A DNA stretch of 64,000 nt from Cryobacterium psychrotolerans. Lineage in GTDB: Bacteria; Actinomycetota; Actinomycetes; Actinomycetales; Microbacteriaceae. Under the pieces are notes generated by a model. The model searched no databases and was not told the DNA's origin. It saw only the letters and a list, made by a program, of their open reading frames with translations. The stretch spans positions 1 through 64,000 of the forward strand of contig NZ_FNFU01000009.1 in NCBI RefSeq assembly GCF_900101115.1, read 5' to 3'. Below are positions 11,969-51,424 of the stretch, piece after piece; positions within the stretch are counted from its first letter, which is position 1; each line of letters opens with the position of its first letter. The position numbers and the translations under genes are program-made.

Positions 11969-11972
11969 CTGC

Positions 11973-12052
11973 GACATCCCTTCGCTAGTGCTAACTAGAC
12001 AGGTTCAACGGGTTTCATCTCAGCTCCCGCATCCGGCGGAGCACCCCGTGTC
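11973..12052 (-). promoter_or_regulatory. TPP riboswitch of thiD-tenA
   Basis: The minus strand shows the THI-box elements in order: GGGGTGC, GCTGAGAT, ACCCGTTGAACCTG, CTAGTTAGCACTAG and GCGAAGGGA. The closing P1 stem pairs GACA at 12049-12052 with TGTC at 11973-11976, so the 3' arm of P1 lies within ten bases of the start codon and includes the AAGGGA Shine-Dalgarno region. TPP binding should therefore block translation directly rather than cause termination; no terminator is seen. Confidence 0.93.
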
Positions 12053-12095
12053 AATCTGGAAAGCCTACAAGACCGTTCCCCGGGAGCGGCGCGGA

Positions 12096-15135: not shown

Positions 15136-15244
15136 GTTGTTCCTGTTCCCGTGGATTCCGATGGATACCGCGGGGACGTTCCCTCAGGCCGCGCTCACCC
15201 GGGCAAGCCCGGCGGGGCACGGCACGAAGGCACGTGAGATTTCC

Positions 15245-15330
15245 CGACTCCCTTCGCCGGTGCTAACCGGAGCAGGTTCGAGGGTCTGCGGCTTCCCGCA
15301 CTCTCAGCGCAGTGAAGCGCTCCCCTGTCG
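15245..15330 (-). promoter_or_regulatory. TPP riboswitch of ykoE and the ECF gene
   Basis: The minus strand carries GGGGAGC, GCTGAGAGTGCGG, GCAGACCCTCGAACCTG, CCGGTTAGCACCGG and GCGAAGGGA in the canonical order. P1 pairs CGAC (15327-15330) with GTCG (15245-15248). It ends 109 bases before the ykoE start, leaving room for an expression platform, although I see no obvious terminator with a T tract. Thiamine pyrophosphate should turn the importer off. Confidence 0.93.
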
Positions 15331-15730
15331 TTCACCGATGATGTTACATGGGCACTCGCGCGACGGGACCGGCCGTGCGGCGCATTTCACTATGTGACGT
15401 GCCCGAGTCAGCCGCACCCTCGGTGGTCGATGTACGCAGAAAAACGAGCAACCTCGTGCGGGGAAGTCCACCGGCAAACCGCGAGACGCTGGACAGCCCC
15501 GGCTGGGATGATGCCGGACCGGCCTCAGCCGGCTGAGATAGCCCTGGCCGCTGAAGCTATAGCCCGGTTCTGCAAAAGGTGCGGAATTTACGCGGGCCAG
15601 CGGACAAGCTTGAAGATCATCCGCTCCCGCTATCCGGAAACGACAAATGGCCTCCGAAATCTCGGAGGCCATTCGTTTTGGGACGAGTTCTTGGAACAGA
15701 ATCAACCAGTTCTAAGAACAACCCCCGTGG
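15331..15730. other. intergenic stretch without a recognised gene
   Basis: Between the riboswitch and tRNA-Ser I see no convincing gene. Open frames on both strands are short, and one runs straight through the tRNA. The promoter of the ykoE transcript must lie at the left side of this region. The tRNA-Ser terminator lies at 15646-15673. The middle part (15400-15600) is moderately GC-rich and shows nothing I can name. Confidence 0.4.
15646..15673 (-). terminator. terminator hairpin behind tRNA-Ser
   Basis: A perfect 12-bp stem (AATGGCCTCCGA pairing with TCGGAGGCCATT) closes a 4-base loop about 58 bases beyond the 3' end of tRNA-Ser. The T-rich tail is short on both strands (TGTCGTTT on minus, CGTTTT on plus), so it may work in both directions. 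Confidence 0.65.
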
Positions 15731-39259: not shown

Positions 39260-39332
39260 GGCCCCATCGTTTAGCGGCCTAGGACGGCGCCCTTTCACGG
39301 CGTTAACACGGGTTCGAATCCCGTTGGGGCTA
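39260..39332 (+). tRNA. tRNA-Glu (anticodon TTC)
   Basis: A 73-base gene with acceptor GGCCCCA/TGGGGCT (first pair G-T), anticodon loop CTTTCAC giving TTC, and T arm GGGTTCGAATCCC. It heads a run of three tRNA genes; CCA is not encoded. Confidence 0.95.
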
Positions 39333-39377
39333 CACAATTGAAAATAGAAATACACTATAAAATGGTTCTCATAGCGA

Positions 39378-39451
39378 GGCCCTGTAGCGCAGTTGGTTAG
39401 CGCGCCGCCCTGTCACGGCGGAGGTCGCCGGTTCAAGTCCGGTCAGGGTCG
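39378..39451 (+). tRNA. tRNA-Asp (anticodon GTC)
   Basis: A 74-base gene with acceptor GGCCCTG/CAGGGTC and discriminator G. The anticodon stem CCGCC/GGCGG around CTGTCAC gives GTC, and the T arm is GGTTCAAGTCC. It lies 45 bases after tRNA-Glu, in the same direction. Confidence 0.95.
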
Positions 39452-39460
39452 CAAAGCAAC

Positions 39461-39486
39461 AAGCCCTTTCGAAAGGAAGGGCTTTT
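39461..39486 (+). terminator. terminator behind tRNA-Asp
   Basis: AAGCCCTT and AAGGGCTT form an 8-bp stem around an 8-base loop, followed by TT after the stem (TTTT in all). It starts 10 bases behind tRNA-Asp, so tRNA-Glu and tRNA-Asp probably form a unit separate from tRNA-Phe. Confidence 0.75.
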
Positions 39487-39519
39487 GCCTTAGAAAGTCA
39501 CCTCTCGAGGTCTCTTTCT

Positions 39520-39592
39520 GGCCCTGTAGCTCAGTTGGTAGAGCGTTCGACTGAAAATCGAAAGGTCACCGGATCGACGCCGGTCGGGGCCA
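39520..39592 (+). tRNA. tRNA-Phe (anticodon GAA), with unusual T loop
   Basis: A 73-base gene with acceptor GGCCCTG/CGGGGCC (one T-G pair), anticodon stem TTCGA/TCGAA around CTGAAAA giving GAA, and discriminator A. The T loop reads ATCGACG between ACCGG and CCGGT, so position 54 is A instead of the nearly universal T. All stems are intact, so it should be functional. Confidence 0.93.
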
Positions 39593-39594
39593 CG

Positions 39595-39678: not shown

Positions 39679-39712
39679 GGCTACAGCACGTCCCCGCGGA
39701 TTCGGGGTATGT
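39679..39712 (+). promoter_or_regulatory. promoter-like box A of the EPS region
   Basis: GGCTAC (39679-39684), 19 bases, then GGGGTAT (39704-39710). The same layout, with GGTTAC and identical spacing, stands before the second glycosyltransferase gene, and 14 bases from GGGGTAT onward are identical there (GGGGTATGTTCGCC). GGGTAT is the -10 of stress-type (SigB/SigF) promoters in actinobacteria, though the -35 spacing here is long. Confidence 0.5.
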
Positions 39713-39826
39713 TCGCCACGTGAGTAGCTGAGATTCCGTCATGTTCCCCGGCTGCTTCCGGCGTGAGCCCCCGAAGCTCTCGCCCGATGGACCGCGAGGT
39801 CCCGCACACCCGCACCTGAACCTGAA

Positions 39827-39846
39827 CCTGTAACCCGAACTGCAGG
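39827..39846 (+). promoter_or_regulatory. SD-sequestering leader hairpin, copy A
   Basis: CCTGTA (39827-39832) pairs with TGCAGG (39841-39846), loop ACCCGAAC. The 3' arm is the start of the Shine-Dalgarno sequence GCAGGGA for a short leader frame at 39856. Copies B (42373-42393) and C (50604-50624) share the stem exactly and the loop core ACCCGAA. The CCTGAA unit is also repeated just upstream (39815-39830). Confidence 0.7.
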
Positions 39847-39855
39847 GAATGACCG

Positions 39856-39933
39856 ATGACTCCACCCACAATTCGTCGACCCCTCCGTCGACCGTGCGCA
39901 CCCGACCGCCCCCGGGCGGTGAGTGCGCGATGA
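39856..39933 (+). CDS. leader peptide A (25 aa), coupled to the glycosyltransferase gene
   Basis: A 25-codon frame starting ATG 8 bases behind AGGG. It encodes an Arg/Pro-rich peptide beginning MTPPTIRRPLRRPCAP and ends in TGA, which overlaps the ATG of the next gene (ATGA). A strong hairpin (ACCGCC/GGCGGT near 39906-39921) lies inside the frame in front of that ATG, so leader translation may be needed to free it. The composition matches no known domain; the evidence is the position, Shine-Dalgarno and two similar cases in the region. Confidence 0.5.
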   Translation: MTPPTIRRPLRRPCAPDRPRAVSAR

Positions 39934-41477
39934 CGAATCCGACGCCGCGCCTGCCGCTGATCGGCCCTCTGCCCCTCGGGCGTCGCCCGAAGCTGAGGCT
40001 CGTCGACCCCGCCACCGAGCTCACGCCCCGGCCGTCCGCGTACGCCCAGGCCTCCGGACTCCGCTGGGCCAGGCAGTACCGGGCCAGGCTTCGTGTGACG
40101 GACGTCGGCATCATTGTGGTGGCCGTTTCGGTGGCCCTGGTCGCACGCTTCGGTGTCGAGGGCGCCCAGGCTTCCATCGGAAGCCTCCGCGCGGACTACT
40201 GGGCGGTGGCCCTCCTGATCGCGGCCACCTGGGTCGCCACGCTCGCTGCGTTCCACACCCGGGATTCCCGGGTCGTGGGGATCGGGGCCTCGGAATACAA
40301 GCAGGTCGCCAACGCGAGCGCGCTCACCTTCGGGATGCTCGCCATCGCCTTTCTCGTGTTCCAGGTCGATATAGCCCGCGGTTTCTTCATCCTGGCCCTG
40401 CCCCTGGGCGTCGTCGGACTCCTGCTTGAGCGCTGGCTCTGGCGCAAATGGCTTCTCCACCAGCGGCACTTCGGCCACTATCTGGCCCGGGTGATCGTCG
40501 TCGGCAAACGCGATGACGTGGAGTACGTGGCCAATCAGATCGATGAGAAATCCGGCGCCGCGTATCACGTCGTGGGCGCCGCGCTCGAGGAGGGCACCGG
40601 GGGAACCGTCAACGCCGGCGACCATGAGGTGCCGGTCGTTGCCGACCTCGATCACGTGGCCGAAGCCGCGGCGGCCATGGGGGTCGACACGGTCATCGTG
40701 GCCGGACACCCCCAGGGTGGGAGCCACTACATCCGCAACCTGGGCTGGGAGCTGGAGGGGACATCCGCCGAGCTGGTGCTCTCGAGCCGGCTGACGGATG
40801 TTGCCGGCCCCCGCATCCACTTCCGCCCCGTCGAAGGCCTGCCGCTGATCCACGTTGAGATCCCCCAGTTCGAAGGGGGAAAGCACGTCCTCAAGCGCGC
40901 CCTCGACGTTGCCGTCTGCGGCGTGGCGATCGTGCTGTTGATGCCCCTTCTGGCCGCGGTGGCGATCGCGATTCGGGCAGAGAGCCCCGGGGCGGTCATC
41001 TTCCGCCAGGAAAGGGTCGGGCGTAACGGCCGCACCTTTCCGATGCTCAAATTCCGGTCGATGGTGCCCAATGCCGAAGACCACCTGTCGGTGCTTCGGG
41101 ATCTCAACCAGGGCTCCGGACTGTTGTTCAAGATCAAGGACGACCCGCGCGTGACCAGGGTGGGCCGGGTGCTGCGCAAGTACTCACTCGACGAGCTTCC
41201 CCAGCTGTGGAACGTGCTCGTCGGCGACATGAGCCTGGTCGGCCCGCGCCCGCCGTTGCCCGCCGAGGTACGCGGCTACGAGAACCACGTTCACCGCCGC
41301 CTCTACATCAAGCCGGGGCTCACCGGAATGTGGCAGGTCAACGGCCGCTCCGACCTCAGCTGGGAGGAGAGCGTCCGACTCGACCTCTATTACGTCGAGA
41401 ACTGGTCGCTCGCGGGCGACCTGATGATCATCTGGCGCACCTTCAAGGTCGTCATCCATCCCGTGGGGGCGTACTGA
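39930..41477 (+). CDS. polyprenyl glycosylphosphotransferase (EPS initiating enzyme), copy 1
   Basis: A 515-residue membrane enzyme of the WcaJ/CpsE type that transfers a sugar phosphate from a nucleotide sugar to undecaprenyl phosphate, starting a repeat unit. Four N-terminal membrane segments lie within about 45-165. A nucleotide-binding-like middle domain (RVIVVGKRDDVEYV, AAMGVDTVIVAG) and a fifth hydrophobic segment near 325-345 follow. The catalytic domain (KFRSMV, YSLDELPQLWNV, DMSLVGPRPPLP, YIKPGLTGMWQVNGRS) ends the chain. ATG 39930 gives exactly the same length as the paralogue at 42529; an in-frame ATG at 39849 would add 27 low-complexity residues. The next gene starts at the stop (TGATG). 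Confidence 0.93.
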   Translation: MTNPTPRLPLIGPLPLGRRPKLRLVDPATELTPRPSAYAQASGLRWARQYRARLRVTDVGIIVVAVSVALVARFGVEGAQASIGSLRADYWAVALLIAATWVATLAAFHTRDSRVVGIGASEYKQVANASALTFGMLAIAFLVFQVDIARGFFILALPLGVVGLLLERWLWRKWLLHQRHFGHYLARVIVVGKRDDVEYVANQIDEKSGAAYHVVGAALEEGTGGTVNAGDHEVPVVADLDHVAEAAAAMGVDTVIVAGHPQGGSHYIRNLGWELEGTSAELVLSSRLTDVAGPRIHFRPVEGLPLIHVEIPQFEGGKHVLKRALDVAVCGVAIVLLMPLLAAVAIAIRAESPGAVIFRQERVGRNGRTFPMLKFRSMVPNAEDHLSVLRDLNQGSGLLFKIKDDPRVTRVGRVLRKYSLDELPQLWNVLVGDMSLVGPRPPLPAEVRGYENHVHRRLYIKPGLTGMWQVNGRSDLSWEESVRLDLYYVENWSLAGDLMIIWRTFKVVIHPVGAY

Positions 41478-42124
41478 TGAGCAATCTGACTGCCGGTCCG
41501 GGGATGGCAGCGTCCCCGGCACAGGGCCCCGGCCATCCGCCACGGATCGCGGCGACGGCCGACGTCGACCCCAGCGCGATCATCGAACCCGACACCGTGA
41601 TCTGGCACCTCGCGCAGGTCCGCGAGTACGCTCGACTCGGCCCGGGCTGCATCCTCGGGCGAGGCGCCTACGTCGGGCCGGGAGTCATCCTCGGCAAGAA
41701 CTGCAAGGTGCAGAATTACGCGCTCGTCTATGAGCCGGCGCTCATCGAGGACGGGGTCTTCATCGGCCCGGCTGCCGTGTTCACAAACGACCTTTTCCCC
41801 CGCGCTGTCAACATCGACGGCACCCAGAAGGCCGCCGTCGATTGGGAAATGGTCGGCGTGACCGTGCGCACGGGTGCCTCCATCGGCGCCCGTGCGGTCT
41901 GCGTCGCGCCCCTCACCATCGGGCGGTGGGCGATGGTGGCCGCCGGCGCGGTGGTGACACGGGACGTGCCCGACTACGCGCTCGTTGCCGGGGTTCCCGC
42001 CCGGCGCATCGGCTGGGTCGGCCGCAGCGGCGCCCGCTTGCAGGACGCAGGCGACGGGACGTACGTCTGCCCCGCCACCGGAGAACGGTACGTGGAGAAC
42101 AACGGGGTGCTCAGTCATACCTGA
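41477..42124 (+). CDS. sugar N-acetyltransferase, WlbB/WbpD-like (left-handed beta helix)
   Basis: A 215-residue hexapeptide-repeat enzyme. From about residue 30 the chain shows repeated hexads (GPGCILGRGAYVGPGVILGKNCKVQNYALVYEPALIEDGVFIGPAAVF over 55-100) and FTNDLFPRAVN, which is typical of WlbB/WbpD, UDP-2-acetamido-3-amino-uronate N-acetyltransferases. The short C-terminal strand pair (GDGTYVCPATGERYVEN) also fits that subfamily. ATG overlaps the glycosyltransferase stop by one base. It suggests that the polymer contains an acetamido sugar acid, but the partner genes (dehydrogenase, aminotransferase) are not in the window. Confidence 0.85.
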   Translation: MSNLTAGPGMAASPAQGPGHPPRIAATADVDPSAIIEPDTVIWHLAQVREYARLGPGCILGRGAYVGPGVILGKNCKVQNYALVYEPALIEDGVFIGPAAVFTNDLFPRAVNIDGTQKAAVDWEMVGVTVRTGASIGARAVCVAPLTIGRWAMVAAGAVVTRDVPDYALVAGVPARRIGWVGRSGARLQDAGDGTYVCPATGERYVENNGVLSHT

Positions 42125-42287
42125 GCACCGGGCGAGGGCGCAATGACGACCACCACCCGGATCTCAATCGGCGGCCAGGCGGCCAGGCGGTCACGACCTG
42201 CTGCGCGCACAGGGGCACACCCGTCGCGCCCCCCGAACGGGGTGTGCACCCACGCTCCGGGGGCTCCTCCGCCATGGCCCCCGTAGG

Positions 42288-42321
42288 GGTTACAGCGCCG
42301 GGCCCCCGGATCGGGGTATGT
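42288..42321 (+). promoter_or_regulatory. promoter-like box B of the EPS region
   Basis: GGTTAC (42288-42293), 19 bases, then GGGGTAT (42313-42319) followed by GTTCGCC, the same as box A. It lies within the 277-base gap behind the acetyltransferase; the rest of that gap (42125-42287) shows nothing further that I can name. Confidence 0.5.
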
Positions 42322-42372
42322 TCGCCGTGTACAGAGGTGAGAATTCATCAGATCTGCACAACAAGACACTGA

Positions 42373-42393
42373 CCTGTAAACCCGAAATGCAGG
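42373..42393 (+). promoter_or_regulatory. SD-sequestering leader hairpin, copy B
   Basis: CCTGTA (42373-42378) pairs with TGCAGG (42388-42393), loop AACCCGAAA. The 3' arm runs into GCAGGGA, the Shine-Dalgarno sequence for the leader frame at GTG 42402. About 54 bases separate it from promoter-like box B. Confidence 0.7.
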
Positions 42394-42401
42394 GAATGCC
42401 C

Positions 42402-42521
42402 GTGAATACGTCGCTTATGCGTCGACTCTTCGTCGACCCCGTGGATCCAGCCCCCGCCCGGGCGGGAGCACCCGCTCCGGCACCCACCGCGCCTCGCTGC
42501 GCCTCGCGGCGGGGACGGTGA
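42402..42521 (+). CDS. leader peptide B (39 aa)
   Basis: A 39-codon frame starting GTG, 7 bases behind AGGG. It encodes a peptide that begins VNTSLMRRLFVDPVDP and turns Ala/Pro/Arg-rich toward RCASRRGR. It stops 7 bases before the ATG of the second glycosyltransferase. An ATG two codons upstream in the same frame is too close to the Shine-Dalgarno sequence. A perfect palindrome CCCGCCCGGGCGGG lies inside the frame. Leader peptides A and C stand in the same place in front of their genes. Confidence 0.45.
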   Translation: MNTSLMRRLFVDPVDPAPARAGAPAPAPTAPRCASRRGR

Positions 42522-42528
42522 GGGCGCG

Positions 42529-44076
42529 ATGACCGACCCGAGGCCCCGGCTTCCGTTCATCACCGCGGCGCCGGCCTGGCACATCCCGCGACTGCGGCTC
42601 GTGGACACCGAGGCGCCTCCGAATCCGGCCCGCAGCGTCGACACGCACTCCTCCGGACTGGCCTGGGCCAGGCGATACCGGACCACGCTCCTCCTGACCG
42701 ACGCCGGGGTCATCGCGGCCGCCGTCGCAACGGGGCTGGCTGCGCACCTGGGCTCCGAGGGTGCTTCCGCGGCCGACCTCGGTCAGCACGCCGAGTACTG
42801 GGGAGTCTCCCTGCTCATCATCGCCACCTGGATCCTCACCCTCGGCACGTTCCACACCAGGGACTCGCGAGTCGTGGGGGTCGGCGCCACCGAGTACAAG
42901 CGGGTGATCAACGCGAGCGCACTGGCCTTCGGGCTGCTCGCGATCGGCTTCCTGCTCTTCCAGGTCCACTCCGCGCGCGATTACTTCCTCGTCGCCCTGC
43001 CCCTCGGCCTGGCCGCCCTCACGCTCGAACGCTGGCTGTGGCGAAAATGGCTGCTGCACCAACGGCTCTTCGGACACTATCTCTCGCGGGTCATCGTGGT
43101 CGGCAAACGCGAGGACGTTGACTACGTGATCGGCCAGATCGACGCCAAGTCCGGCGCGGCCTACTGCGTGGTGGGTGCGGCGCTGGAGAGCGACGGCGGC
43201 CCCGCGGTGATGGCCGGGCAGCACGAGGTGCCCGTCGTCGCCGACTTGAGCCGGGTCGCGAGCGCGGCGGCGAGCATGGGTGTCGACAGCGTGATCGTGG
43301 CCGGAGCCCCCGAGGGCGGAAGCCAGTACATCCGCAACCTCGCCTGGGACCTGGAAGGCACCTCGGCCGAGCTGGTGCTGTCGAGCCGGTTGACGGATGT
43401 CGCCGGACCCCGCATCCATTTTCGTCCGGTTGAAGGCCTGCCGTTGATCCACGTGGAGATCCCGCACTTCGATGGCGCCAGGCACGCACTCAAGCGAATG
43501 CTCGACCTGGTGGCCTCCGGACTGGGGCTCCTCGTGCTGTTGCCCCTGCTCCTGGCGATCGGCATCCTGGTCAGAGTCGAAAGCCCGGGTCCCGCGCTGT
43601 TCCTGCAGGAGCGCTGTGGCCGCAACGGGCGCACGTTCACCATGGTCAAGTTCCGCTCGATGGTCCGGACCGCGGAGGATGACCTGGCCGGCCTCCGCGA
43701 ACTGAACGAAGCATCCGGTGCGCTGTTCAAGATCCGCCATGACCCGAGGATCACCCGGGTGGGGCGCGTGATCCGCAAGTACTCCCTCGACGAATTGCCC
43801 CAGCTCTGGAACGTCTTCGTCGGGGACATGAGCCTGGTGGGCCCGCGCCCGCCGCTGCCGACCGAGGTGGAGTGCTACGAGCGACATGTACATCGGCGTC
43901 TCTACATCAAACCGGGGCTGACCGGCATGTGGCAGGTCAACGGCCGCTCGGACCTGTCCTGGGACGAGAGCGTACGGCTCGACCTGTTCTACGTCGAAAA
44001 CTGGTCCCTCCCCGGAGACCTGCTCATCCTGTGGCGCACCGTCAAGGTCGTCCTCCGCCCGACGGGGGCGTACTGA
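42529..44076 (+). CDS. polyprenyl glycosylphosphotransferase, copy 2
   Basis: A 515-residue paralogue of the gene at 39930, equal in length and alignable throughout. It has the same N-terminal membrane segments, RVIVVGKREDVDYV, a shared 20-plus residue block around LSSRLTDVAGPRIHF, and the catalytic KFRSMV, YSLDELPQLWNV, GPRPPLP and YIKPGLTGMWQVNGRS. It should also load a sugar phosphate onto the lipid carrier. The N-terminal cytoplasmic tail and the region facing the sugar differ most, so the two may accept different sugars. ATG 42529 follows a GTGAGGG tract. Copy 2 is followed by the cytidylyltransferase gene after 32 bases. Confidence 0.93.
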   Translation: MTDPRPRLPFITAAPAWHIPRLRLVDTEAPPNPARSVDTHSSGLAWARRYRTTLLLTDAGVIAAAVATGLAAHLGSEGASAADLGQHAEYWGVSLLIIATWILTLGTFHTRDSRVVGVGATEYKRVINASALAFGLLAIGFLLFQVHSARDYFLVALPLGLAALTLERWLWRKWLLHQRLFGHYLSRVIVVGKREDVDYVIGQIDAKSGAAYCVVGAALESDGGPAVMAGQHEVPVVADLSRVASAAASMGVDSVIVAGAPEGGSQYIRNLAWDLEGTSAELVLSSRLTDVAGPRIHFRPVEGLPLIHVEIPHFDGARHALKRMLDLVASGLGLLVLLPLLLAIGILVRVESPGPALFLQERCGRNGRTFTMVKFRSMVRTAEDDLAGLRELNEASGALFKIRHDPRITRVGRVIRKYSLDELPQLWNVFVGDMSLVGPRPPLPTEVECYERHVHRRLYIKPGLTGMWQVNGRSDLSWDESVRLDLFYVENWSLPGDLLILWRTVKVVLRPTGAY

Positions 44077-44108
44077 TCATGCCCCTCACCCGATCCCAAG
44101 GAGCACAC

Positions 44109-44564
44109 ATGTCACATCGAATCGGCTACGCCGGCGGCGCCTTCGACCTGTTCCATGTCGGCCACCTGAACATCCTCAAGCATGCAAAGAGCCAGTGCGA
44201 CTACCTCATCGCGGGAGTCGTGTCCGATGAACTTCTCGAGCTCGTCAAAGGCCGGCGCCCGATTGTCCCCCTCTCGGAGCGGCTGGAAATCGTGCGCCAC
44301 GTCTCGTTTGTTGATGAGGCCGTGGAGGAAACCTTTCTGGACAAGCTGGACACCTGGCGATCGGTGCACTTCGATATCTACTTCAAGGGAGACGACTGGA
44401 AGGGAACCGAACGGGGGCTGCGCCTCGAGCAAGCGTTCGCCGAGGTGGGTGTCGAGGTGGTCTACTTCCCCTACACGATGAGCACCTCGAGCACCGCGCT
44501 CCGCCACGCGCTCGACGCGTTGTCGGCGCCCCCGCGCGAGGCCGAGGCGGTGCGCCGGCGCTAG
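44109..44564 (+). CDS. cytidylyltransferase of the TagD/glycerol-3-phosphate type
   Basis: A 151-residue nucleotidyltransferase that probably makes a CDP-alcohol such as CDP-glycerol. The signature GGAFDLFHVGHLNILKHAK near 9-27 includes the HVGH nucleotide motif; KGRRPIVPLSERLEIV and a C-terminal MSTSSTALR (ISTT-like) complete the fold. The chain is somewhat longer than TagD (about 130). ATG 44109 has AAGGAG at ideal distance; an upstream in-frame ATG (44079) lacks one. Its product could feed the CDP-alcohol phosphatidyltransferase encoded at 54286, or another phospho-alcohol substitution on the polymer. Confidence 0.85.
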   Translation: MSHRIGYAGGAFDLFHVGHLNILKHAKSQCDYLIAGVVSDELLELVKGRRPIVPLSERLEIVRHVSFVDEAVEETFLDKLDTWRSVHFDIYFKGDDWKGTERGLRLEQAFAEVGVEVVYFPYTMSTSSTALRHALDALSAPPREAEAVRRR

Positions 44565-44656
44565 CAGCCGGCGCCCTGGCGCCCGCCGCACCAACCTGAG
44601 AGTCCCCCCAGAGGGGGAATACTTGACTAACGCTCAGCTACTGGTCCGTGTGACGA

Positions 44657-44684
44657 TTGTCCTGGGCGTTCCAAATCTTATGTA
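44657..44684 (+). promoter_or_regulatory. promoter of the GH16 hydrolase gene
   Basis: TTGTCC (44657-44662), 16 bases, TATGTA (44679-44684): a good vegetative-type promoter about 80 bases before the start. A further G-rich box, GGGGGAATACT near 44612-44622, resembles the EPS boxes loosely. Confidence 0.5.
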
Positions 44685-44763
44685 GCCACCGAGCCATACC
44701 CGCTTGTCATGCATACTGCTCTGCCGCTCACCACCTACTCACAACAGCGGCAAGGAGTGACTC

Positions 44764-45723
44764 ATGTCACCATTCGGATTCACGCGCTCCCGGAGGGCGC
44801 CCGGCAGGACCCCGGACGGGCGCCGCGGCGTCGCACGAACGATCGGAGTGTCGACAGCGACCCTCACGGTTCTGGCCCTGTCGGCCGTGAGTCTCCCCGC
44901 CCAGGCGGCACCGGCGGTCCAGCCGACGGTGAGCCTCGCCTCGGCCGCGACCGCCCCGGCCGGATGGAAGCTGGCCTGGGCCGACGAGTTCTCCGGCACC
45001 ACGCTCAATCGCGCCGTATGGAACGTCGCGAACAGATCAACCTACGGCGACGGGAACAAGGAGCTCGCCTGCCTGATGGACCGGCCGCAGAACGTCAAGG
45101 TATCCAGCGGCCTCCTTACGATCGCGGCGCGCAAAGAGGCGACTCCGATCACGTGCGGCACGCGCGACACGCGTTTCCCCGCCGGGCGCACGTACACCTC
45201 GGCCATGCTGCACACGAAGAACAAGCTCGCCTTCCAGTACGGACGGTTCGAGATCCGCGCGAAGATGCCGACCACACAGGGAACCTCGAAGGGACTGTGG
45301 CCGGCCTACTGGATGCGCCCGGCCGCCGGCGGGATCGGCGAGCTCGACATCCTCGAGCTGATCGGCACCGGCAAGAGCGACCCGTACAGCGCCGACAAGG
45401 TTTCCCAGACCATCCACTACGACTACGTGGGAACCCACCGGAAGCAGTCCCAAGTGCACAAGCTCGCCAGCGGCAACTTCGCCGATGGTTTCCACAACTA
45501 CGCGGTCGAATGGGCGCCGGGTTCGATCAAGTGGTTCGTCGACGGGACCCTGACCTACACGCGCACCCTCAGCACGACGTCGTGGATTGACAAGGCGTTC
45601 GTGGGCAAGTTCTACCTCCGGCTCAACATGGCCGTCGGCGGCACGTGGCCCGGCTCGCCCGATGCCAACACGGCTTTCCCCGCGAACTACCAGGTCGACT
45701 ACGTCAGGGTCTTCAGGCGCTGA
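44764..45723 (+). CDS. secreted glycoside hydrolase family 16
   Basis: A 319-residue beta-glucanase-like enzyme. The N terminus has a twin-Arg region and a signal segment (LTVLALSAVSLPAQA, cleavage near 50). The jelly-roll GH16 domain starts at WKLAWADEFSGTTLN. The catalytic motif ExDxxE is present as ELDILE near 193-198, and the flanking WPAYWMRP and NYAVEWAPGSIKWFVDG are typical. It is alone on its transcript with a good GGAGTG signal before ATG. In an EPS region it may trim or release the polymer, as GH16 family EPS depolymerases do; the substrate is not known. Confidence 0.92.
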   Translation: MSPFGFTRSRRAPGRTPDGRRGVARTIGVSTATLTVLALSAVSLPAQAAPAVQPTVSLASAATAPAGWKLAWADEFSGTTLNRAVWNVANRSTYGDGNKELACLMDRPQNVKVSSGLLTIAARKEATPITCGTRDTRFPAGRTYTSAMLHTKNKLAFQYGRFEIRAKMPTTQGTSKGLWPAYWMRPAAGGIGELDILELIGTGKSDPYSADKVSQTIHYDYVGTHRKQSQVHKLASGNFADGFHNYAVEWAPGSIKWFVDGTLTYTRTLSTTSWIDKAFVGKFYLRLNMAVGGTWPGSPDANTAFPANYQVDYVRVFRR

Positions 45724-45776
45724 CGTGCGCAAGCGCCGACGTTCAGAAGCGCCGACGCAGTCGCAGCGGCCGCGCC

Positions 45777-46712
45777 TCAGAGGCCGCGGCCGCGGCGGTT
45801 GACGGCGTTGACCAGCGGCCCGGCGGGCACCAGGCGCGCGGCGATGGCCATCGCCACGTAGGCGCGCAGTTGGGAGCGGTCGTGGTGGATGGCGCGACCG
45901 GCCCAGCTGCGCGCGCCGGCCAGCTGCCCGAGGGCGGCCAGCGCGAAGGCGATCTGGCCCTCGATCCGGGCTGACCCGGCGGCGCTGCCGGCGAATTCCG
46001 GATGCTTGTCGAGCAGGTAGCTGAGTCCGTCCGCGATCCCCTGCCACTTCCCCGAGAAGAACGACGCTCGGTTCCAATGGATGATGACCAGCGGCTCCCG
46101 TATTCCCAGGATGTGGCCGACGCGGGTGGCCCGGAGCAGAAGGTCGTAATCCTCCCCATAGGACGTCGGCAGCACCTCGTCGACCAGGCCGATGCGGCCG
46201 AGCAGATCGGCACGCCGGAGCAGGAACGAGGACGGGTGGATTTCGGTGATCCGCGACGCCAACAGGGCGGCGAATTCCGTGCGTTCGGGGGGCAGCCGAT
46301 CGACCGTCCGGCCTGGCGTCACAATGCGGATGCCGGTGGCCACGAGAACCGCAGCCGGGTCCTCTCGCCACGCCTGGACCTGCCTGATCAGTTTGGTGGG
46401 GAGCCACTCGTCGTCATCGTCGCAGAATGAGGTGAGCTCTCCGCCGGCGGCGAGGATCCCCGTGTTACGGCCCCCGGCCAGTCCCGGCGTGCGGTCGTTC
46501 GACATCGTGCGGAGCGCTCGCGGACCGGCCGGCACGACGACATCCTCGAGGGGATCGACGGCCACCTGGTCGAAGACGACGATCACCTCGATCTCGCCCG
46601 CGTACTCCTGTCCGAGTGCGGCCCGCACCGCCGACCGGAGCAGCTCGGGCCGCCCGCGGGTCGCGATGACGACGCTCACGCTGGGTAACGTCGCACTCGA
46701 CTGCGCCGGCAT
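45777..46712 (-). CDS. family 2 glycosyltransferase
   Basis: A GT-A enzyme of 311 residues. The family start is VSVVIATRGRPELLRSAVRAALGQ near 12-35, followed by the nucleotide-sugar-binding loop NDRTPGLAGGRNTGILAA and the DXD-like metal site FCDDDDEWLPTK near 98-109. The later block SYGEDYDLLLRATRVG contains the ED pair used as catalytic base in GT2. No membrane segment is seen, so it acts on the inner face of the membrane. The start ATG overlaps the polymerase stop by one base, so the two are translated together. Confidence 0.92.
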   Translation of the reverse strand: MPAQSSATLPSVSVVIATRGRPELLRSAVRAALGQEYAGEIEVIVVFDQVAVDPLEDVVVPAGPRALRTMSNDRTPGLAGGRNTGILAAGGELTSFCDDDDEWLPTKLIRQVQAWREDPAAVLVATGIRIVTPGRTVDRLPPERTEFAALLASRITEIHPSSFLLRRADLLGRIGLVDEVLPTSYGEDYDLLLRATRVGHILGIREPLVIIHWNRASFFSGKWQGIADGLSYLLDKHPEFAGSAAGSARIEGQIAFALAALGQLAGARSWAGRAIHHDRSQLRAYVAMAIAARLVPAGPLVNAVNRRGRGL

Positions 46713-48007
46713 CAGACGAACCTTCCCAACCGGTGCTTGTGCAGACCGGAGGGCAGGACATCCGGACGCATGGTCAGCGCCGCGGCGATCATGGCGATCG
46801 CAAGTCCCGCAGTCATGATCCCGTAGTAGAGCGACTCGACGAGCACGACCAGCAGCACGGTGTTGAGGGCCAGGCCTGCCGGGTCACGTTCGCGGATCGA
46901 CCTGATGTAGGCCCAGGCCAGCCACCCCATGAACAGAACCACCCCGGGGAACCCGTGCGAGAACATGACCATCCAGATCTGGCCCTGGGTGCCAACGGAT
47001 GGCGCGTCATCCTTTTCGGAGGGGCGCGGGGCCCCGTAGCCGAGCCAGGGCGAATCGAGGGTACGGTCGAATGCCTCCTGGTAGAGGTTCGCGCGGTCCT
47101 CGGTCGACGAGCTGGCCGTGATCCTGTGGGTGAGTCGCTCGGCGATGGGCAGGGTCGCGAACGCGACCGCGACGACGGCCGCGAGCGCGAGCAGGCCGAG
47201 GAGCGCTTTGCCGTTGCCGCGGATGACCAGGCGAACGGCCACGTAGACCAGCGCGAGTCCGAGCCCCAGGAACATCCCCCGGTTGAGGGTGAGGAAGGCC
47301 GGCACCAGGGACACCGGGATGGCCAGGAGGAGCCACCAGAACCGCCGCTCCCCCCGCACCTCGACGAGGTAGGCGATCACGATGGGCAGGAGCATGGAAT
47401 AGGCGTTGCCCCAGCCGTTCGTGTAGAGGAACGGGGCGCTGGGCCGGGGATCGAGCTTGGCCCATCCGTCCGGGTTGTACTGGGAGACCCGCCGGACGAT
47501 CATGTCCTGGACCATCTCGTTGGAACTGATCGGGGCCGGGAGCACGAGGCCCAGCGGCGTGTGGATCGACAACAGGGGGAAGATCACGCCGATATACCCA
47601 CCCGCGACGATGACAAGCCAGAACACGGTCAACACGCCGAGGACGTACCGCGTTGTGAGCGAGGCCCCGGCGTTGTAGACGTAGAGAAAAATGATCGTGA
47701 CGCTCAGGTAGAGCAGGGCGCGATAGGCGAACCCGACGAGGCGATCACCGGTGTCAATTCCGATCACCGAGATGCCCATCCAGACCAGGAAGAACAGCCA
47801 GATGGCGAGCCCGCGCGGGAAACTGATGCCACCGCGGCGAACGAGAAGGAAGAGCATCACGGTGGCCAGCGCTATCCACACGGCCTCACCGAGGCCGAGC
47901 AGCCACCAGGCCGGGAACAGCACGAACATGGCCGCAAACGGCCAGCGCGGGAGGGGCTGCCGCAGAACAACGTCAGAGCCCGGCCTGGCCGGAGCGAGTG
48001 CCCGCAT
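46712..48007 (-). CDS. Wzy-like O-antigen/EPS polymerase or ligase
   Basis: A 431-residue integral membrane protein with about ten to twelve hydrophobic segments. A large external loop lies around 165-215 (SSNEMVQDMIVRRVSQYNPDG and PSAPFLYTNGWGNAYS) and a second at 310-345 with GYGAPRPSEKDD, the arrangement of the O-antigen ligase/polymerase family. Polymerases of this class join lipid-linked repeat units outside the membrane. It shares its transcript with the GT2 gene and is divergent from the WecG-like gene. Sequence variation in this family is high, so polymerase versus ligase is a judgement based on the EPS context. Confidence 0.85.
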   Translation of the reverse strand: MRALAPARPGSDVVLRQPLPRWPFAAMFVLFPAWWLLGLGEAVWIALATVMLFLLVRRGGISFPRGLAIWLFFLVWMGISVIGIDTGDRLVGFAYRALLYLSVTIIFLYVYNAGASLTTRYVLGVLTVFWLVIVAGGYIGVIFPLLSIHTPLGLVLPAPISSNEMVQDMIVRRVSQYNPDGWAKLDPRPSAPFLYTNGWGNAYSMLLPIVIAYLVEVRGERRFWWLLLAIPVSLVPAFLTLNRGMFLGLGLALVYVAVRLVIRGNGKALLGLLALAAVVAVAFATLPIAERLTHRITASSSTEDRANLYQEAFDRTLDSPWLGYGAPRPSEKDDAPSVGTQGQIWMVMFSHGFPGVVLFMGWLAWAYIRSIRERDPAGLALNTVLLVVLVESLYYGIMTAGLAIAMIAAALTMRPDVLPSGLHKHRLGRFV

Positions 48008-48146
48008 ACGCTGCTCCTTCTCCGGTCGGCCCGGCCGATGCGCCGGTTCTCATGTCACGCGGGTTCAGTATAGGTAGCAACGCGGCGCATTATTCAACCC
48101 CGAACGGGGGTAGGTGCCCCCGCGCTGTTGTGCCAGTGTGTGCAGC

Positions 48147-48968
48147 ATGAGGATAGCTCACCTACCAGCCGACGGGACTCCCGACCGCCCCGTCTCTTCC
48201 GGCGGCCCGTCGACCGCACGCCGCGTCGACGTCGTCGGCGTGGCCGTCGACACCCTGACCATGGCGGAGGTCGTCGAGACGATCCTGCGATGGACGGATT
48301 CCACCACGGTCCATGTCGCCGTTGGCGTCAATGCCGATGTGTGCAACCAGGCTGCCGCGGATCGGGTCCTGTGCGGTGTACTGGCCTCCGCCGACCTCAC
48401 CTACGCGGACGGTCAGTCGATCGTCTGGGCGGCGCGATTCCTCGGCCGGATCATCCCGGAGCGCGTCGCCACGACCGATCTCATCCACCCGCTGGCCGCG
48501 GCGTGCGCGCAACAGGGAAAGAAACTCTTCCTGTACGGGGGGCAGGCCGGGGTCGCCGAGCGAGCCGCCGCCCGCCTGGCAGCCGGGTCGCCTGGGCTTC
48601 TGATCGATACGCACGACGGCTTCGTGCTGGAGCAGCACATGGACCGGCTGGTGCGGGAGATCAACGAGTCGGGGGCCGACATCCTTCTGGTCGGGCTCGG
48701 CGATCCCCTCCAGCAGCGCTGGGTTTCCAGCCATCGCAGCGAGCTCACCGTTCCGGTCGTGCTGACCTGCGGCGGCCTGTTCGACTGGACGAGCGGGGCA
48801 CACCGGCGCGCTCCCGCCTGGATGATCGGCGCGGGCCTCGAATGGCTCTGGCGCCTCATGATCGAACCGCGACGACTCGCGAAGCGATACCTGCTGGGCA
48901 ATCCCGCCTTCCTGCTCCGACTGGGCCTGGAAATCCTGCGCAATCACCGACGGGCCACGGTGTCGTGA
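48147..48968 (+). CDS. WecG/TagA/CpsF family glycosyltransferase
   Basis: A 273-residue GT26 enzyme that adds the second sugar, often ManNAc or its acid, to a lipid-linked acceptor. The family blocks are visible: VNADVCNQAAADR near 65-78, the catalytic-aspartate region LTYADGQSIVWAARFLG near 88-104, ERVATTDLIHPLAAACAQQGKKLFLYGG, and LVGLGDPLQQRWV toward the C terminus. A helical tail with LEWLWRLMIEPRRLAKRYL probably touches the membrane. ATG 48147 is preferred to an open frame beginning at 48114. The stop overlaps the flippase start as GTGA. ManNAc-type specificity is known for relatives only. Confidence 0.92.
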   Translation: MRIAHLPADGTPDRPVSSGGPSTARRVDVVGVAVDTLTMAEVVETILRWTDSTTVHVAVGVNADVCNQAAADRVLCGVLASADLTYADGQSIVWAARFLGRIIPERVATTDLIHPLAAACAQQGKKLFLYGGQAGVAERAAARLAAGSPGLLIDTHDGFVLEQHMDRLVREINESGADILLVGLGDPLQQRWVSSHRSELTVPVVLTCGGLFDWTSGAHRRAPAWMIGAGLEWLWRLMIEPRRLAKRYLLGNPAFLLRLGLEILRNHRRATVS

Positions 48969-50497
48969 GCAGCAGGACGCAGCTCGTCGCCACCGATTCC
49001 ACCAACCTTGCCAGGGGCGCGGTCGCGGGCTTCGCCGGCGCCGCCACAAGCGCTGTGATGGGTTTCGTGCTGATGGTCGTCCTGGCCCGCACGCTCGGCG
49101 ACACCGGCTCGGGCGTGGTCTTGCAGGCCATCGCGGTCTTCTCGATCGTCCTGAGCCTGGCCAGGGCCGGCATGGATTCCGCCGCCGTGTGGATCATGCC
49201 CCGCCTGGTCGCGCACGATCCGGCACGGATCCGCAGCGCGCTGACGGTCATGTTCGCGGCGACGGCAGCCGCCGGCGTCCTCTGCGGCGCGGCAACCGTG
49301 ATCCTCGCGCCAGGCTTCGCGTTGACCGGGGACTCCCACGCCAGTGACGTGGCGGATGCCGTGGCCGTCGCCGGATGGTTCCTTCCGGTCGCGGCGCTCC
49401 TGCTGGTGGGGCTTGCGGCCACCCGGGGTCTGGGCGGCGTCCTGCCGTACGTGAGCGTGGGCAGCATCGGCCTTCCCGTCGTGCGTCCCATCGTCGTCTG
49501 GCTGGTCGCTGCCGGCGGCGGATCCTTCGTTGCCGTCACCCTGGCCTGGGCCGCCCCGCTCCCGGTCGCCCTGATCGCCGCCGCCCTCGTGCTGCGGGTC
49601 CAGGTTCGCCGTCACGAAGGGGCGGCCGGGGTGCGCGGGCTCTGGCGCCCTGATCCCTCCCTGCGGAAGGGCATCGTGTCCTACGCCTTGCCTCGAACGC
49701 TGTCGGCCGGCCTGGAACAGTCGGTGATTTGGCTCGACGTTGTGCTCGTGGGCATCCTTGCCGGGTCGGCTTCGGCCGGTGTCTACGGCGGCGCCAGCCG
49801 TTTCGTGGCCGCCGGACTCATCATCGACACGGCACTTCGCCTCGTCGTGTCCACTCGATTCAGCACCCTCCTGTTCCAGGAAAAGGTCGCCCAGGTCCAG
49901 GCGCTCTACCGGGTGGCGGCCACCTGGCTCGTGCTGTTCGGCACACCGATCTACCTCGTCCTGGCCGTTTTCGCGCCGGTGGTCCTCCAGCTGCTTGGAC
50001 CAGGCTTCACCGAAGGATCGACGGCGCTCATGATCCTGTGCGCCGGCGGAATCATCAGCTTCACGGCCGGCAACGTGCAGTCGGTGCTCCTGATGAGCGG
50101 GCGGAGCGGCTGGGCGGCATTCAACAAGGCAATCGTGCTCGTCGTCAATGTGGCCGGGAACCTCGTGCTCGTGCCGCTCATCGGCATCAATGGCGCCGCG
50201 ATCTCGTGGGCACTCAGCATGCTCATCGATGCCGCCCTCGCGACCGTGGAGGTCCGACGGTTCATCGGCATCCGGCTGGATGCGCGCGCCGTGGCGTACG
50301 CACTCATGGTGCCGGTGATCACGGTCGGCATCCCGGCCCTGGCCCTGCGGCTCACGGTCGGTGACACCCTGGCCGCGTTGCTCATCGCCCTCCCCCTGTG
50401 CGCGGCACTGTTCTTCGGCTGGTGCGCCCTGGACCGCCGGAGGTTGCAGCTGCATGACCTGGCGCTCCTCGCACGCCGCCGGGCCCCGGTGAAGTGA
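48965..50497 (+). CDS. Wzx-like polysaccharide flippase (MOP superfamily)
   Basis: A 510-residue membrane protein with roughly twelve to fourteen hydrophobic helices. It opens with the typical RGAVAGFAGAATSAVMGFVLMVVLARTLG and contains GVYGGASRFVAAGL and a C-terminal LVPLIGINGAAISWALSMLI. It is predicted to move lipid-linked repeat units from the inner to the outer face of the membrane. GTG 48965 overlaps the stop of the WecG-type gene. Together with the Wzy-like protein it makes a Wzx/Wzy-dependent route the best model for this locus, although no Wzz or tyrosine kinase regulator is found in the window. Confidence 0.9.
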   Translation: MSSRTQLVATDSTNLARGAVAGFAGAATSAVMGFVLMVVLARTLGDTGSGVVLQAIAVFSIVLSLARAGMDSAAVWIMPRLVAHDPARIRSALTVMFAATAAAGVLCGAATVILAPGFALTGDSHASDVADAVAVAGWFLPVAALLLVGLAATRGLGGVLPYVSVGSIGLPVVRPIVVWLVAAGGGSFVAVTLAWAAPLPVALIAAALVLRVQVRRHEGAAGVRGLWRPDPSLRKGIVSYALPRTLSAGLEQSVIWLDVVLVGILAGSASAGVYGGASRFVAAGLIIDTALRLVVSTRFSTLLFQEKVAQVQALYRVAATWLVLFGTPIYLVLAVFAPVVLQLLGPGFTEGSTALMILCAGGIISFTAGNVQSVLLMSGRSGWAAFNKAIVLVVNVAGNLVLVPLIGINGAAISWALSMLIDAALATVEVRRFIGIRLDARAVAYALMVPVITVGIPALALRLTVGDTLAALLIALPLCAALFFGWCALDRRRLQLHDLALLARRRAPVK

Positions 50498-50515
50498 TGC
50501 CAACCGAATGCGGGG

Positions 50516-50545
50516 GGTTCACTTCAGTGTTCGCTGGGGGTACTG
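50516..50545 (+). promoter_or_regulatory. promoter-like box C of the EPS region
   Basis: GGTTCA (50516-50521), 15 bases, then GGGGTAC (50537-50543). It resembles boxes A and B, and fits the GTTT...GGGTA(T/C) pattern of SigB/SigF promoters better than they do in spacing. It lies just behind the flippase stop. Confidence 0.45.
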
Positions 50546-50603
50546 TGCGTCGTAGTCGGAGCTCTCCCACCCCCGGGAGGCACCCGGCTGACGTGGGAAC
50601 CAA

Positions 50604-50624
50604 CCTGTACACCCGAAATGCAGG
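50604..50624 (+). promoter_or_regulatory. SD-sequestering leader hairpin, copy C
   Basis: CCTGTA (50604-50609) pairs with TGCAGG (50619-50624), loop CACCCGAAA. The 3' arm continues as GCAGGAGA, the Shine-Dalgarno sequence for the leader frame at GTG 50635. An ATG at 50628 in another frame stops after three codons. Confidence 0.7.
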
Positions 50625-50634
50625 AGATGATCCA

Positions 50635-50688
50635 GTGAACCCGACCCTTGCGCTTGCGTGCGCTCCCGCCCCCGGGAGTCCGTCATGA
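50635..50688 (+). CDS. leader peptide C (17 aa), coupled to the secreted-protein gene
   Basis: A 17-codon frame, GTG start, encoding VNPTLALACAPAPGSPS. Its TGA overlaps the ATG of the next gene (ATGA). A hairpin CTCCCG/CGGGAG lies at its 3' end. Position, Shine-Dalgarno and overlap repeat the arrangement of leader A. All three leader peptides share a Cys-Ala followed by Pro or Ser near their C-terminal part, which may be chance given their composition. Confidence 0.5.
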   Translation: MNPTLALACAPAPGSPS

Positions 50689-51380
50689 CGAAGTCCACGC
50701 ACGCCCCCCAGCCCGGCGGCGAGCCGTCGGGCGAGCGGCGGCCGCCCCGCCCCCGGCGCCGAGCCGTGCTTGTCGGGCTGTCGGCCGCGGTGACATTTCC
50801 GCTCTGCCTGGCAGCCTGGGCGTCCTTGCCCGCCCCGGCGACGGGCGCGGTCGAGAAAGCGGCGCCTCCCGCGGTGGGCGGCACGATCCGCGCGGCCGCC
50901 CCGGCGGCCCCGTCCCCCACCGCGACGCCTCCCGGGGCCTCGACGACGGCCCCGCTGGGAGCCCTCAACAAGGAGCTGGCGACATCGACTGTCAAGGGAT
51001 TCCTGGAGTCTGTCGCAGCCGTTGATCCGACGTCCAAGAGCCTGGGCGCCAAGCTGTCCGCCGTGGCCAGGGGCGCGATCGTCGACGAGCTCGAGAACGA
51101 GCAGCAGGAGTTGGAGTCGAACGGCTGGACGCAACGCGGCAAGGCCACCGTGAAATCCGTCACCATCATCAGCACCAACCTGACCGCAACGCCCCCGGCT
51201 GCGGTCGCACAAGCCTGCGTCGACTCCGGCAAGGTCGTGACGCTCGATGCCGACGGCCGGCCGCTGGCCGGCACGGACCCGGCTGCCGCGCACGCCGCCC
51301 TGAACATCTACTCACTGCAGCAGGACGGCGGAACGTGGCGCATCACGGCCCGGACGTTCCCGGACGACCCGGCCTGCTGA
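50685..51380 (+). CDS. secreted or membrane-anchored protein of unknown function (231 aa)
   Basis: The N terminus is basic (GERRPPRPRRRAVLVG) and followed by one hydrophobic segment (LSAAVTFPLCLAAWASL, about 35-52), then a Pro/Ala/Thr-rich spacer to about 95. The outside domain begins near LNKELATSTVKGFLES. It resembles the small alpha+beta (NTF2-like or Mce-associated) domains often found behind such anchors, but I cannot assign a family. It is the first gene of a transcript with the fibrinogen-like protein (44 bases) and CDP-alcohol transferase, all under leader C. A role in EPS export or anchoring is inferred only from position. Confidence 0.75.
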   Translation: MTKSTHAPQPGGEPSGERRPPRPRRRAVLVGLSAAVTFPLCLAAWASLPAPATGAVEKAAPPAVGGTIRAAAPAAPSPTATPPGASTTAPLGALNKELATSTVKGFLESVAAVDPTSKSLGAKLSAVARGAIVDELENEQQELESNGWTQRGKATVKSVTIISTNLTATPPAAVAQACVDSGKVVTLDADGRPLAGTDPAAAHAALNIYSLQQDGGTWRITARTFPDDPAC

Positions 51381-51424
51381 TGCGCCGATCACGGCCGACC
51401 CCATCACTCACGAGGAGAACCGAC

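Follow-up and report, generated by a model that had tools for sequence, protein, structure and literature searches.

An exopolysaccharide locus with three leader hairpins

We analyzed a 64,000-nucleotide (nt) stretch of the Cryobacterium psychrotolerans genome (contig NZ_FNFU01000009.1, positions 1 to 64,000), referred to as the window herein, which carries an exopolysaccharide (EPS) locus. Within this locus the same short predicted hairpin, HP1, recurs in front of three transcripts. The original prediction, made from the letters of the window, held that HP1 is a selected element that hides the Shine-Dalgarno sequence of these transcripts. Upon checking the sequence, we found all three hairpins in place and with the predicted letters, each with a CCTGTA/TGCAGG stem around an 8 to 9 nt loop that contains ACCCGAA. 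The 3′ arm runs into the Shine-Dalgarno sequence at every site, as had been claimed. The hairpins, their Shine-Dalgarno sequences and the first genes behind them are as follows.

39827-39846, plus strand: HP1 at site 1, CCTGTA-ACCCGAAC-TGCAGG, covariance-model score 45.7 bits
42373-42393, plus strand: HP1 at site 2, CCTGTA-AACCCGAAA-TGCAGG, covariance-model score 50.6 bits
50604-50624, plus strand: HP1 at site 3, CCTGTA-CACCCGAAA-TGCAGG, covariance-model score 42.1 bits
39842-39848, plus strand: Shine-Dalgarno sequence of site 1, GCAGGGA, partly inside the HP1 3′ arm
42389-42395, plus strand: Shine-Dalgarno sequence of site 2, GCAGGGA
50620-50627, plus strand: Shine-Dalgarno sequence of site 3, GCAGGAGA
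39930-41477, plus strand: phosphoglycosyl transferase (PGT) 1, an EPS polyprenyl glycosylphosphotransferase (TIGR03025, Bac_transf)
42529-44076, plus strand: PGT 2, with 70% identity to PGT 1
50685-51380, plus strand: gene that opens the third transcript, encoding 231 amino acids, no Pfam or NCBIfam match, with a membrane-anchored look

The pattern CCTGTAN{0,4}CCCGAAN{0,3}TGCAGG matched the 3,247,111-base genome three times, always in the window, and the backward pattern did not match at all. When the 21-nt form of HP1 was allowed up to three mismatches, we recovered sites 2 and 3 in the window and nothing in 100 shuffled windows; the hairpin of site 1, shorter by one base, is not covered by this search form.

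HP1 is conserved in Microbacteriaceae and linked to PGT orthologues

An exact-pattern scan over 84,980 species genomes yielded 46 loci, 42 of which belong to Microbacteriaceae by title or genome kinship. They fall in Cryobacterium, Leifsonia, Rathayibacter, Glaciibacter, Glaciihabitans, Galbitalea and Microterricola, as well as in metagenome-assembled genomes. The other four (L007, L015, L030 and L033) are outside the family and inside open frames; we took them as chance matches and excluded them from all counts. A covariance model was then built from a first alignment of 28 exact-pattern copies; L004 and L021 had been omitted from alignment A1 for lying too near the locus end. This model matched 50/57 genomes of the genus (E ≤ 0.05) and 34/249 genomes of the family (E ≤ 0.01), two of the latter (L144 and L145) being chance-like. 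An order-wide draw gave matches in 4/297 genomes, and the only one outside Microbacteriaceae (L177) sits inside a 573-codon open frame. Since stricter filters were applied in the genus, family and order searches, weak copies of HP1 may be missed. In total we collected 109 HP1 copies, with same-genome duplicate loci left out by hand. L144 and L145, weak matches inside tRNA-synthetase and topoisomerase genes, are still counted in the 34/249 and the 109.

To relate HP1 to the genes behind it, we searched the genus genomes with the window PGT. Of 121 matches, 15 were excluded as short or C-terminal fragments, three of them more than 60% identical. Of the 52 matches with at least 60% identity, 49 are preceded by a same-strand HP1 at a distance of no more than 500 bp, as are none of the 54 paralogues below 60% (42-52% identity). 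One of the three orthologues that lack HP1 (L159, in genome G280) carries ACCCGA in a different stem, TTCCCT/AGGGAA, that still covers the Shine-Dalgarno sequence. The genus holds 25 further HP1 copies: 21 lie within 34 kb of a PGT-linked copy on the same contig, and 4 are on contigs without such a copy. In the genus, the HP1 set therefore looks like a single-locus regulon. Copies in certain other genera (G006, G089) are far apart.

Across all collected copies, a PGT homologue follows within 1.5 kb downstream in 76/109, and the weak family matches L079, L142 and L143 are also upstream of a PGT. Further first genes that we tested encode hexapeptide acetyltransferases, one glycosyltransferase, two DMFA2_C proteins, a protein that matches DUF5122 weakly and several proteins without a family. 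Taken together, the searches bear out the picture of a selected, Shine-Dalgarno-hiding hairpin common to the transcripts of one EPS locus: HP1 is conserved across several Microbacteriaceae genera and goes with polysaccharide genes, PGT orthologues in particular.

Stem, loop and predicted fold of HP1

Over 83 distinct alignment rows, 98.6% of the stem cells are paired. As for compensatory changes, we observed one compensated pair, the outer one (C-G in 79 rows, U-A in 3 and U-G in 1), and one change from U·G to U-A at the fifth pair (U-G in 79 rows, U-A in 4), and nothing more. None of 500 shuffles reached the covariation score or the number of compensated cells, but 75 of them did reach the number of compensated pairs.

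In structure prediction, HP1 is present in most single folds with its loop accessible, and the mean z-score is -2.3. The mean predicted pairing probability of the Shine-Dalgarno CAGG over 91 leaders stays at 0.94-0.95 between 4 and 50 °C and is still 0.85 at 70 °C. This bears on the idea that HP1 has no partner and serves as a passive damper or an RNA thermometer. Such a hairpin would hide a Shine-Dalgarno sequence just as HP1 does, and the genus is cold-living, yet the predicted pairing shows no release in the growth range and a conserved loop would be needless; we consider this explanation very improbable.

The ACCCGA loop is near-invariant across copies. Other loop changes occur in L130 and L143, and two related copies, L133 and L134, keep the stem with ACCCCTAG replacing ACCCGAA. 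A conserved loop that is accessible in the predicted fold is what one would expect if a trans-encoded small RNA paired with ACCCGAA to open or lock HP1. We found no candidate for such an RNA, however, nor any protein partner. A tRNA anticodon loop was also considered, speculatively, as a pairing partner of the loop; the tRNAs beside site 1 are those for Glu, Asp and Phe. The loop complement GNTTCGGGTNC occurs 45 times in the genome and its backward control also 45 times, so this search is uninformative either way. We regard a small RNA as decidedly unlikely, and if a factor reads the loop, a protein is more likely.

HP1 mostly covers the Shine-Dalgarno sequence of a short leader open reading frame

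The hiding of a Shine-Dalgarno sequence stood up to closer analysis, while its target had to be revised: what follows HP1 is mostly a short leader open reading frame (ORF) instead of the EPS gene itself. The window sites have the following leader ORFs.

39856-39933, plus strand: leader ORF 1, 25 codons, its stop overlapping the PGT 1 start as ATGA
42402-42521, plus strand: leader ORF 2, 39 codons, GTG start, its stop codon beginning 10 nt before the PGT 2 start
50635-50688, plus strand: leader ORF 3, 17 codons, GTG start, its stop overlapping the start of the next gene as ATGA

Site 1 has a further ATG at 39849, 2 nt behind GCAGGGA and in frame with PGT 1, which is probably too near the Shine-Dalgarno sequence to serve as a start. 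In 93/95 leaders, the strongest pairing with the anti-Shine-Dalgarno sequence includes at least part of the CAGG in the HP1 3′ arm, and the distance from the 5′ end of the stem to the leader start codon is 28-31 nt in 89/95. The start codon is GTG in 77/95 leaders, and leader ORFs range from 12 to 92 codons.

To count coupled leaders, we used an automatic procedure that required a downstream ORF of at least 120 codons and applied the same procedure to random positions in the same loci. The leader stop and main start overlap exactly, with the one-base offset of ATGA or GTGA (-1), in 71/109 HP1 copies compared to 301/6540 random positions, a count that is not to be taken as a probability. A further 25/109 copies are close in another geometry. 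The leader ORF thus appears, on sequence grounds, to be coupled to the main gene. We saw no significant additional structure ahead of the main start (mean z -0.4).

We then asked whether the leader peptide is conserved. In 34 related leader pairs, the difference rates at the first, second and third codon positions after codon 13 were 0.163/0.168/0.181, and no coding constraint on the peptide was detected in this part. Codons 1-13 gave an ambiguous 0.136/0.095/0.147. By comparison, the main genes of 18 comparable pairs gave 0.073/0.049/0.205. An RRPxRRP motif is missing from part of the leaders. The even change across codon positions after codon 13 suggests that leader translation, not peptide sequence, is what matters, and the peptide is probably not the selected product. 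An attenuator or stalling leader peptide was also considered and rejected, as we found neither a conserved peptide nor a regulatory codon run.

A hidden Shine-Dalgarno sequence brings CsrA to mind. CsrA/Rsm leaders have a protein-gated Shine-Dalgarno sequence in biofilm and EPS genes, where CsrA reads GGA within the core motif ANGGA. Accordingly, CsrA could bind the GGA beside HP1 and repress leader translation. The AGGGA within GCAGGGA fits the core, the genome has a csrA gene (G000:C34:113972-114124), and such a gene is present in 22/34 HP1-positive family genomes compared to 77/249 overall. However, 12/34 HP1-positive genomes have no match, 10 of these 12 being 93-100% complete and some carrying strong HP1 matches (for instance G025, E = 1.4e-9). 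Moreover, ANGGA is missing at site 3 (GCAGGAGA), in Rathayibacter (GCAGGTTGA) and in others, and what is conserved in HP1 is the ACCCGA loop rather than GGA. Regulation by CsrA is therefore very unlikely to explain HP1. The presence of csrA in an actinobacterium, and in 77/249 genomes of the family, is an observation in its own right.

Further shared parts of the leaders

The surroundings of the three hairpins had been described as otherwise different. This does not apply to sites 1 and 2, which share a TATGTTC, a TGAG-N6-TCA box and a second hairpin, HP2, of the form GTCGAC-N5/6-GTCGAC. Copies of ACCCG upstream of HP1 are a further recurring part.

39808-39812, plus strand: upstream ACCCG copy, site 1
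50582-50586, plus strand: upstream ACCCG copy, site 3
39875-39892, plus strand: HP2 at site 1, GTCGAC-CCCTCC-GTCGAC, beginning 19 nt behind the first base of the start codon of leader ORF 1
42421-42437, plus strand: HP2 at site 2, GTCGAC-TCTTC-GTCGAC, beginning 19 nt behind the first base of the start codon of leader ORF 2
39708-39741, plus strand: promoter-like TATGTTC and TGAG-N6-TCA box (39729-39741), site 1
42317-42350, plus strand: promoter-like TATGTTC and TGAG-N6-TCA box (42338-42350), site 2

We counted ACCCG in 106 stretches of 83 nt that end at HP1, some of them from related copies. There are 74 occurrences compared to 23.3 ± 4.4 in shuffles, and 30 of the 74 lie 10-13 nt before the HP1 stem. 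No second hairpin of the HP2 kind is found at window site 3. Among leaders below 80% identity, 27/71 have a hairpin of six full base pairs whose 5′ arm is 18-21 nt downstream of the leader start, and these use 10 different pairs of arms. At any offset other than 18-20, such hairpins occur at a rate of 0-8%. HP2 pairing at fixed columns came to 244, compared to 201.4 ± 8.5 when columns were shuffled, with 233 as the maximum of 5000 shuffles. Leaving out the GTCGAC pairs, it came to 160 compared to 137.5 ± 7.6 (10/5000 shuffles as high).

The TGAG-N6-TCA box begins 21 nt after the -10-like TATGTTC at sites 1 and 2 and is common to many relatives. In 39/65 rows it lies 21-22 nt from a -10-like TANNNTC, and 24 rows are without such a -10. 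TGA-N7-TCA was counted 58 times in 88 stretches, compared to 1.5 in mononucleotide shuffles. We tried the box as a 5′-end hairpin and rejected this, as its outer pairs do not covary (100 compared to 95.8 ± 5.0, 52 rows). Given these flanks, we read it as an operator-like box, and it looks like the putative DNA operator of a transcription factor.

Could HP1 itself be such an operator, a hyphenated inverted repeat at which a transcription factor forms a roadblock downstream of the promoter? The nearly invariant stem sequence is as expected of an operator, as is the repetition of ACCCG upstream, so often at 10-13 nt. However, HP1 keeps its near-fixed distance to the start codon while its distance to the TGAG-N6-TCA box varies by about 100 nt (22-130 nt, n = 61), and the conserved centre ACCCGA is asymmetric. 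Since the spacing is tied to the start codon and not to the promoter-linked box, action at the RNA level is favored, and we consider a DNA operator unlikely.

The remaining features of the region stand apart from the leaders. Behind the third hairpin, a secreted-looking protein of 979 codons in its longest frame (51335-54271) has no Pfam match; a DUF5122-like protein (weak match) is also behind HP1 in L135. A family-16 glycosyl hydrolase is encoded inside the EPS region at 44764-45720. Directly left of the locus are tRNA-Glu, tRNA-Asp and tRNA-Phe (39260-39593), possibly an integration boundary, and two thiamine pyrophosphate (TPP) riboswitches lie on the minus strand at 11960-12058 and 15232-15336.

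Comparison with known systems

An Rfam scan of the window at gathering score gave six matches. These are to tRNA or TPP models and lie away from the HP1 sites; T-box and epsC/EAR (RF01735) are among the families covered. A permissive scan of site 1 alone gave one chance match (E 4.8). The epsC RNA/EAR and JUMPstart elements are, like HP1, leader RNA elements common to polysaccharide genes, but they are described as acting on transcription elongation (PMC2864571). The LoaP hairpin of antibiotic operons is likewise a small leader hairpin, bound by protein and controlling long operons; it has a UNCG-type loop, works by antitermination and needs a NusG paralogue (PMC12691694). By this logic HP1 could be a recruitment hairpin for processive antitermination of the RfaH/ops, LoaP or EAR type, and its polysaccharide operons are the same gene context. 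Yet the HP1 loop is not of the UNCG type, the genome has a single NusG-domain match (PF02357) and no specialised NusG paralogue, Rfam gave no match, and the spacing is tied to the start codon. We judge antitermination most improbable.

ANTAR targets resemble HP1 in that they are hairpins in actinobacterial mRNAs, may extend into the ribosome binding site and usually number 1-3 per genome. They are dual stem loops with hexanucleotide loops in which A1 and G4 are conserved (PMC8164766). In contrast, the HP1 loop has 8-9 nt with ACCCGA, and the second hairpin, 28 nt away, is pyrimidine-rich, with loops such as CCCTCC and TCTTTC. We therefore rejected HP1 as an ANTAR-target RNA; the genome encodes three ANTAR domains. 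Another related system is the leader-gene reinitiation of Actinobacteria, described by distance statistics with a peak at 10-11 bp, in which a short leader ORF directly before the structural gene hands the ribosome on at the stop/start (PMC4833913). That account has no shared hairpin or regulon in the part consulted, whereas the HP1 loci mostly have an overlapping ATGA and a conserved Shine-Dalgarno hairpin. Full-text literature searches, with subscription papers outside their scope, met no description of an HP1-like element, and searches of listings and abstracts met no comparable control of polysaccharide production in Microbacteriaceae.

A model for HP1 and what it would mean

We propose that HP1 acts in cis as an RNA hairpin, gating the initiation of translation at a coupling leader ORF and thereby setting EPS output, a reading that we hold to be probable from the sequence comparisons. 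When HP1 is closed, the Shine-Dalgarno sequence of the leader ORF would be buried and the EPS gene little translated. When it is open, a ribosome could translate the leader ORF and, at the overlapping stop/start (ATGA), either reinitiate on the EPS gene or unfold its start. A single small hairpin might in this way set how much is made from several transcripts in one EPS locus. We infer that HP1 forms in the cell and that leader and main gene are coupled. Of the common post-transcriptional switch in the original prediction, RNA-level action is thus retained, with the amendment that it would act mostly through the leader ORF and together with further shared parts.

Several observations weigh against this model. 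Support from stem covariation is thin: stem pairs 2-4 are invariant in the 83 rows, and the innermost pair fails in 7/81 scored rows. The compensatory evidence is small because 75/500 shuffles reach the number of pairs changed on both sides and because a +3 shift of the 3′ partners reproduces the one pair and three cells, with three further types. The overlap count comes from related copies and is favored by genes that begin with ATGA, and the leader selection procedure, used alike in the random control, itself prefers overlap geometry. By this procedure, 13/109 HP1 copies have no coupled leader, and in four copies (L016, L047, L041 and L064) the main gene itself begins at the first start codon after HP1. 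Lastly, the HP1 copies are related to one another, so the counts are not independent.

The near-invariant ACCCGA loop and the extra ACCCG copies suggest a sequence-specific binder, and such a factor would read the loop, perhaps together with the upstream ACCCG, and lock or open HP1. More tentatively, and with some doubt on our part, this could be a dedicated Microbacteriaceae RNA-binding regulator that reads ACCCGA and makes a second contact at the upstream ACCCG. It would control translation of the several transcripts of the EPS locus through leader ORFs, independently of their peptides.

With its near-invariant loop, HP1 offers a bait of 20 nt for fishing out a putative binding factor, and the system is a clear test case for regulation through a coupling ORF whose peptide is irrelevant. 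For the family, HP1 defines a compact, searchable RNA element and a regulon for polysaccharide production. If a dedicated regulator does read it, this would be a translational counterpart of the RfaH/ops logic.

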